A stretch of 20,554 nucleotides of DNA from a virus. The DNA lies in IMG/VR virus record IMGVR_UViG_3300035157_001307, positions 1 to 20,554 of that record. One strand, 5' to 3'. The notes under the pieces were generated by a model. That model did not search any database. It was not told the origin of the DNA and saw only the letters and a program-made list of their open reading frames with translations. Below, piece by piece: positions 14,362 to 15,543 of this stretch (the first letter of the stretch is position 1; each line of letters opens with the position of its first letter). A program made the translations under genes and the position numbers.

Positions 14362-15071
14362 AATTAGTTACATTCGGTTGTTCTTGGACAAATGGTGTAG
14401 GTATACACTATAGAGAAGGAATGACTCTTGAAGAGTATCAAAAGGAAAGAAAGAACTCTGATAATAAAGAACTTAGAGATAAACTGACCTTTCGAGCACA
14501 TCTATCAGAAAGACTCGGTTATACAAATGTCAATCATGCCTGTGGTGGAAGTAGTAACCAACTACAGGAGAGACTTGCTACAGAATATTTCAACAACAAT
14601 TCCCTAGAAGACACAGTAGTCCTCTGGGGCATTACTTCGATTACTCGTAATGAACTTACAATAAACGGTGAACGTAAGAACTTTCATTATGGTAATACTG
14701 TAGATGAATATATGCAATACTATATCGATCACTTCTATGATGAGAAGACTGAGTTAGAAAGACTTGGTAATATGATGGTACATTGGAATAAGTTCTTTGA
14801 AGGGCACAATATACCAAATCTCTGGTTTCAGACTTTCAATACCTATAGGTTCCCTCAGAAGATCGATCGCCTTCTACCTCGTGACTTACTGACTCATCTC
14901 ACCCGCCCCGTTTTACGAGATGTTCATCGTTCAGCATGGAATATTGATTCAAAAAGAATACGAGAAGCAAAAGATAAAGGATTAGTCAACCCTTACTCCC
15001 TACATCCAACTAAGGAGACTCATATACTGATAGCAGATATGTTAGAAAAACCCCTACGGGAAATTTTATAG
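14358..15071 (+). CDS. SGNH/GDSL-hydrolase-like protein
   Basis: This 237-residue protein opens with VTFGCSWTNG, where S9 fits the block I nucleophile (GDS in the family, GCS here). GGSSNQ (63-68) fits the next glycine/asparagine blocks, with N67 as a possible oxyanion residue. A strand VVLWGITSITRNE (87-99) follows. Near the end, NPYSLHPTKETH places H216-P217 at the catalytic His position. The Asp usual three residues before that His is replaced by Y213, so the triad is altered or completed differently. SGNH enzymes remove acyl or acetyl groups from sugars and lipids. With sulfotransferases and a glycosyltransferase nearby, a role in surface-glycan modification is possible but inferred. It is the last gene of the plus-strand run. 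Confidence 0.72.
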   Translation: MKLVTFGCSWTNGVGIHYREGMTLEEYQKERKNSDNKELRDKLTFRAHLSERLGYTNVNHACGGSSNQLQERLATEYFNNNSLEDTVVLWGITSITRNELTINGERKNFHYGNTVDEYMQYYIDHFYDEKTELERLGNMMVHWNKFFEGHNIPNLWFQTFNTYRFPQKIDRLLPRDLLTHLTRPVLRDVHRSAWNIDSKRIREAKDKGLVNPYSLHPTKETHILIADMLEKPLREIL

Positions 15072-15182
15072 CGAAAAAAATTTTGATATTTGATGTAACT
15101 GTAATTCGATATCACTCTCGCGTCTGGAAACGTTTGTAGGTTAGAAGGACCCATTGTTTTAATAACGGGCACCGCCCCCCAT

Positions 15183-15315
15183 AAAAAAACGGGGGAAAAT
15201 CGGGGCAACTGTTTTTTTAGGTGCTGTCCGATTCCCCTCCGTTCGGGTAGTGTGTGAGATCGGGGGTGGTTCATGCTAACCCGTTTGCCGAGTGTAATTA
15301 GAACCCCCTCCCCAT
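15183..15315 (-). ncRNA. Putative phage small RNA (about 130 nt)
   Basis: The transcript is predicted on the minus strand from about 15315, seven bases after a consensus -10, to a T7 run at 15189-15183. The 5' domain folds as GGGGGUUC with GAACC-A-CCC (one bulged A), enclosing ACUCG-GCAAA-CGGGU. The 3' domain is an intrinsic terminator: ACGGAGGGGAAUCGG pairs imperfectly with CCGAUUUUCCCCCGU around an A-rich internal loop, followed by U7. A central single-stranded-looking ACACACUACCCG joins the two. No convincing reading frame is present, and the fold is not a tRNA cloverleaf. An RNA that regulates or titrates host or phage messages is the simplest guess. I recognise no known RNA family. Confidence 0.6.
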
Positions 15316-15321
15316 GTCTCT

Positions 15322-15350
15322 ATTATAGTCCGCACTTATAAGTCTGTCAA
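15322..15350 (-). promoter_or_regulatory. Consensus sigma70 promoter of the putative small RNA
   Basis: On the minus strand TTGACA (15350-15345), exactly 17 bases, TATAAT (15327-15322), a perfect match in both boxes. No CAATCAATCA leader and no supported protein start follows, unlike the early-gene promoters to its right. Confidence 0.78.
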
Positions 15351-15543
15351 CTGGGTTGTTTACATTTGGCAACAGTTTGCTTTTTTCAAAATCCTGCAAA
15401 GTTGTCTCAAGGTTTAGACGATCCTTATAACGAACTGTTGAAAACGAAATTTTACACGATACTGTCATGATAACGATTTTCGAGGATTGTGTGAGTTTTG
15501 TGAAGACTGGTTGACTTTTTATATGAAGTCCGCTAAGAGGAAG

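Follow-up and report, generated by a model that had tools for sequence, protein, structure and literature searches.

The window, by which we mean the whole stretch of 20,554 nucleotides analysed here, comes from an uncultured T4-like cyanophage. This 20.5-kb fragment carries genes for baseplate wedge proteins resembling gp6 and gp25, a purM of the phage type and a gene of the ferredoxin family. On its minus strand, a sigma70-type promoter (15322..15350) with TTGACA at 15350-15345, a 17-nt spacer and TATAAT at 15327-15322 matches the consensus at 12 of 12 positions. It is followed by a predicted small RNA (sRNA) of ~133 nt (15183..15315, minus strand), whose start (~15315) is placed from the promoter and whose end is placed from a U-run. 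The succession of promoter, two hairpins and U7 had been proposed in the initial annotation and is confirmed in the sequence. The promoter had also been called the best in the window; its perfect score stands but its uniqueness does not, as a second 12/12 promoter lies at 16448-16420 on the minus strand. Two exact TTGACA-17-TATAAT promoters compare with ~0.04 expected by chance from base composition. The second one, the promoter of a 170-aa gene, is overlapped by the listed TTG start (16448) of that gene; translation more likely begins at an ATG at ~16394 (MEFDLTN), as in contig L096. The leader CAATCAATCA occurs eight times between 16824 and 20486 on the minus strand and is, as annotated, absent from the sRNA. 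The sigma70 consensus and the position of the gene make early expression plausible.

The RNA folds with a minimum free energy (MFE) of -47.2 kcal/mol (z -3.2 to -3.5), and none of 200 shuffled sequences is equally stable. The local jump in GC content noted earlier is borne out (0.519 in the sRNA vs 0.376 in the window), with only 0.3% of 133-nt windows as GC-rich. A 5' hairpin (15259..15315, minus strand; positions 1-57 of the MFE structure) contains a module (15268..15305) composed of helix P2, an internal loop UAAUUA/UUAGSAU, helix P3 and a GCAAA loop. The hairpin is followed by a linker (15245..15258, minus strand) that is unpaired in the MFE structure and consists of CUCACAC (15258-15252) and then ACUACCC. 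The mean unpaired probability of CUCACAC is 0.74 in the window and 0.85-1.0 in four relatives. An intrinsic terminator (15183..15244, minus strand) with a long GC-rich stem and U7 (15189-15183) completes the RNA; it was missed by an automated terminator scan of the window because its loop exceeds the length that the scan allows. A pseudoknot between ACCCG of the linker and CGGGU of the hairpin, spotted by eye in the window, was dropped since the partner is not kept in the related phage L003.

Two close relatives among uncultured phages in IMG/VR, L002 and L003, were found via a search with the product of the upstream 99-aa gene (P0002; 15602..15901, minus strand), which is 87-88% identical and syntenic in both. 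In the same gap, all three phages have identical promoter boxes and U7 and share the linker CUCACACNNUACCCGAA and the stretch GAGGGGAAUCG without a change, while the sequence of the 5' hairpin varies. L002 has kept linker and terminator but lost the conserved hairpin module, which is thus not essential within this clade. Directly after the terminator, ~125 bp are nearly invariant in the three phages and hold a late-promoter-like element (15057..15182, minus strand), a neighbour outside the RNA with its core CTAACCTACAAACGTTTCCAGACG at 15144-15121. The convergent genes further downstream are unrelated: they encode a 237-aa protein in the window, which we read from its sequence as SGNH-like and for which a search gave no relatives, an endonuclease VII-like protein in L002 and a ferrochelatase-family protein in L003. 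Hence, the unit is conserved on its own account and not as the leader of a neighbour. A leader or attenuator of downstream genes was rejected because the genes that follow are convergent and different in all three phages. Upstream of the promoter, a second CTCACAC is located at 15495-15489 (minus strand), and the stretch TTCACAAAACTCACACAAT that holds it is kept in L002 and partly in L003.

The internal loop UAAUUA/UUAGSAU is common to the window, L003, L097, L100, L117 and L238, mostly together with a GCAAA loop. These six phages were picked by the loop letters and not by pairing, so that P2 provides an independent test. All five P2 pairs vary on both sides among the six phages, with a covariation score of 1.067 against 0.305 +/- 0.12 in shuffles and at most 0.387 when slid; in a hand alignment, the variation in P3 is compatible with pairing too. 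A covariance model (R1) built from four of the six recovers L003 (E 0.0023) and L097 (E 0.11), neither of which was used in building it. R1 gave no match in eight isolates or two host genomes, nor in 101 host-family genomes, a search that carried no positive control. The 5' hairpin is a previously unrecorded cyanophage motif backed by compensatory changes. The fold of L097 is particularly clean (hairpin, open linker, terminator; z -6.8). Near the same site, L104, L109, L128, L156 and L194 have hairpins that share a GGCA..TAAG(A/T)CC closing and differ in their interiors; this pattern has eight matches, including L097, L100 and L119, and none in a reversed-sequence control.

A gene dedicated to a phage small RNA had been proposed in the initial annotation. 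L002 and L003 keep the promoter, the unpaired linker, the terminator and the position beside differing convergent genes, the 5' hairpin carries compensatory changes in more distant phages, and no open reading frame is conserved, all of which supports that proposal. The initial annotation had passed over the Yfr1-like CUCACAC linker, the late-promoter-like element immediately past the terminator and the relatives at this site. We consider it very probable that this is a real, transcribed RNA gene. The earlier statement that it belongs to no known family holds against Rfam 15, in which the sRNA has no match at gathering or relaxed thresholds. Likewise, no similar DNA is present among INPHARED phages, and a genome-wide pattern scan of bacterial genomes found no copy.

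The linker recurs beyond this clade. L096 and L097, which were found by protein alignment search and not by RNA features or the CUCACAC motif, have CUCACAC just before a T-tailed hairpin, followed by the late element. Among 24 stretches that matched this layout in a pattern scan, 12 are true cyanophage sites. Altogether, 13 contigs (window included) from about seven lineages have an unpaired CUCACAC just before a terminator and upstream of a late-promoter-like element. In eight of the 13 the motif is present by construction because the scan searched for it. The preceding AC lies outside the seven searched letters and is found in 7/13 contigs and 4/7 lineages (p 0.0005). Hairpin and CUCACAC tend to occur together (hairpin in 9/13 contigs with the motif vs 3/95 without; Fisher p 4e-8, with counts made partly by eye). 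The intergenic regions of L096 and L097 also contain many short GTATCAAATGTTAC / GTATAATTTGTTAC repeats between small early genes, which look like operator sites of a regulator.

The known RNA most similar in layout is the cyanobacterial Yfr1 (RF01116), which also has a 5' hairpin, an unpaired linker with CUCACAC and a 3' terminator hairpin with a U-run; in the host strain WH7803 it consists of a hairpin, ACUCCUCACAC and a terminator. CUCACAC makes up 7/11 letters of the Yfr1 seed. Linker lengths are 16-20 nt in Yfr1 and 14 (window, MFE), 18 (L002) and 13 nt (L097) in the phage RNAs, two hairpins being present. However, the phage RNA is phage-encoded, longer (~133 vs 54-69 nt) and has a different 5' hairpin, and the ultraconserved ACUCCUCACAC is absent from its unpaired region, where the window has GAUCUCACACAC. 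What phage RNAs and Yfr1 have in common is only CUCACAC, or ACCUCACAC in 7/13 contigs; position -2 is A in 12/13 phage RNAs and U in Yfr1, and the UCCU of the Yfr1 motif is not kept. Yfr1 acts via pairing through its motif, and UCCU is needed for the pairing with ppa (PMC6778093). The Yfr1 covariance model, which does detect host Yfr1 (WH7803), has no match at E up to 10 in 15100-15400. Judged by its sequence, the window sRNA is not a member of Yfr1, because the full motif is absent. Yfr10, Yfr12, Yfr18 and other RNAs with a Yfr1-type motif resemble the phage RNA in being small and variable in structure and place (PMC6778093, PMC2518516), but the motif is complete in them and in some cases placed in a loop, whereas the phage RNA has a core of 7-8 nt only.

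Through the Yfr1 motif, Yfr1 and Yfr10 base-pair with mRNAs as well as with Yfr2 (PMC6778093). Host Cyano-1 RNAs, which we take to belong to the Yfr2 family from their GUGUGAGGAGU 5' end, mostly begin with (GU)GUGAGG, and CUCACAC is complementary to the 5' end of these Yfr2/Cyano-1 RNAs. For most Yfr2 5' ends, the best duplex predicted with the window RNA is centred on the open CUCACAC. Its energy is only weakly better than for shuffled sequences (p 0.03-0.38 depending on the Yfr2 variant), which is suggestive but not significant for the window RNA by itself. Other non-coding RNAs are known from T4-like cyanophages, namely CfrI, PhotoRC-II, wcaG, manA and glnA (PMC9964418, PMC12197685). CfrI is antisense to psbA, while wcaG, manA and glnA are cis-regulatory leaders (PMC9964418, PMC12197685). 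None matches the sRNA. The manA RNA is located elsewhere on four related contigs. Interference with a host sRNA by imitation is a known strategy of phage or prophage RNAs such as AgvB (cited in PMC12197685); these RNAs differ from the one predicted here in host and sequence.

Relatives keep the RNA at the same spot, and therefore it probably serves as a regulator in the course of infection. The best reading, which we hold tentatively, is an sRNA that is made early, acts in trans and has a seed like that of Yfr1. We infer transcription, timing, targets and effect, whereas the anatomy of the gene, its conservation, the covariation in the hairpin and the exposure of the seed are read directly from the DNA. 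Host RNA polymerase would make the sRNA early from the consensus sigma70 promoter and would stop at the strong intrinsic terminator, immediately ahead of the element that resembles a late promoter. Single-stranded CUCACAC would be exposed between the 5' hairpin and the terminator hairpin, and the linker could pair in trans with RNAs bearing GUGUGAG(G). Candidate partners are host ribosome-binding sites of the Yfr1-target kind or the conserved 5' end of Yfr2/Cyano-1. The phage RNA might thereby imitate or compete with the host sRNAs Yfr1 and Yfr10. Such a Yfr1-like mechanism is the likeliest mode of action, albeit a rather doubtful one.

The gene lies where early and late genes meet. The core of the late element, CTAACCTACAAA..T..CC.RACG, is often followed by GATAAATAT, occurs in ~90 records of isolated phages and in at least 120 stretches from IMG/VR, and sits upstream of small structural-region genes. 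It contains ATAAATA, which resembles a T4-type late promoter; the conservation upstream extends further than in a T4-type late promoter. The main rival explanation starts from this position, exactly between the last early gene and the late-promoter-like element: the unit might be a transcription boundary that stops early transcription before the late promoter, the RNA being a by-product and hairpin and terminator keeping early RNA polymerase away from the late promoter. In most cyanophages a plain GGGGCAG..TTGCCCC terminator stands alone at this site, with no such RNA, and the loss of the hairpin module with retention of the terminator in L002 also fits a boundary. However, a consensus promoter aimed into a boundary is unneeded, and the conservation of the linker and of the hairpin internal loop goes beyond terminator function. 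We hold this explanation to be rather unlikely, if worth weighing.

Ten units with a near-consensus sigma70 promoter abutting a terminator were found in 1.18 Mb of cyanophage sequence (L134, L176, L183, L193, L195, L196, L197, L229, L238 and L256, isolate S-SSM4), defined by a -10 box followed within 10 nt by a hairpin and a T-run. All ten lie at most 260 nt upstream of the late element, with none elsewhere and none in resampled controls; the scanned loci were gathered around the late element, and qualifying stretches account for a percent or two of bases. The RNAs predicted for these units are 25-30 nt long. In S-SSM4 (NC_020875), the unit is located near 27,413-27,470. The locus L208 falls narrowly outside the criteria of the scan; its promoter is followed by AGGGTTAACTCACACTAACCCTATTTTTTT, with ACUCACAC in the hairpin loop as in Yfr10-type RNAs. 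The gene in the window may be a long version of an orphan promoter unit of this kind. Units in which a promoter abuts a terminator also support the boundary explanation and a site for polymerase loading or replication priming. According to the latter, the sigma70 promoter loads polymerase, or a short RNA opens the DNA beside the AT-rich late element; origins of T4 use a promoter and an R-loop. The strict location of the ten units speaks for it, as does an RNA length that ranges widely (25-133 nt) while promoter and place recur. Yet it leaves the conservation of linker and hairpin unexplained, and the promoter beside the AT-rich element is the sole origin-like feature seen at the site. We regard loading or priming as improbable.

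In L097, L100, L117 and L119, the hairpin starts directly after a stop codon, which would suit a structure in the 3'-UTR that protects or tunes the early mRNA upstream of it and is released by processing in the manner of an sRNA. In contrast, the unit of the window, L002 and L003 lies ~250 nt past the upstream gene and has its own exact promoter; a 3'-UTR structure is improbable. A small protein gene, encoded by the longest frame across the sRNA (84 aa from ATG 15274) or a 56-aa frame (15468-15298), is highly improbable and was rejected for want of frame conservation: open frames are present in the window, but L002 and L003 conserve neither their start codons nor their reading frames, and the changes in P2 are compensatory for RNA pairing. 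The earlier judgement of no credible protein frame in the ~133 nt holds, and related phages show a compensated P2 helix rather than a conserved frame.

Returning to the trans-acting sRNA, a broader and more speculative proposal, to which we give rather low credence, is a cyanophage family of orphan-promoter RNA genes at the early/late junction. At its short end would be RNAs of 25-30 nt, whose promoter abuts a hairpin terminator, and at its long end structured RNAs of 133 nt; a subset with a Yfr1-like seed would take over or titrate the host Yfr1/Yfr2 network in infection. Hardly any regulatory RNAs encoded by marine cyanophages are known, and those published are mostly finds of Rfam searches or antisense RNAs. 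What is new here is an unrecorded structured RNA with compensatory changes, a fixed genomic place and part of the seed found in an sRNA that nearly all cyanobacteria possess. Promoter-terminator units occur at the same place, one of them in isolate S-SSM4, which makes the question testable in culture. If the pairing through the seed is real, these phages would act at the level of RNA to reprogram the carbon and nitrogen metabolism of their hosts.
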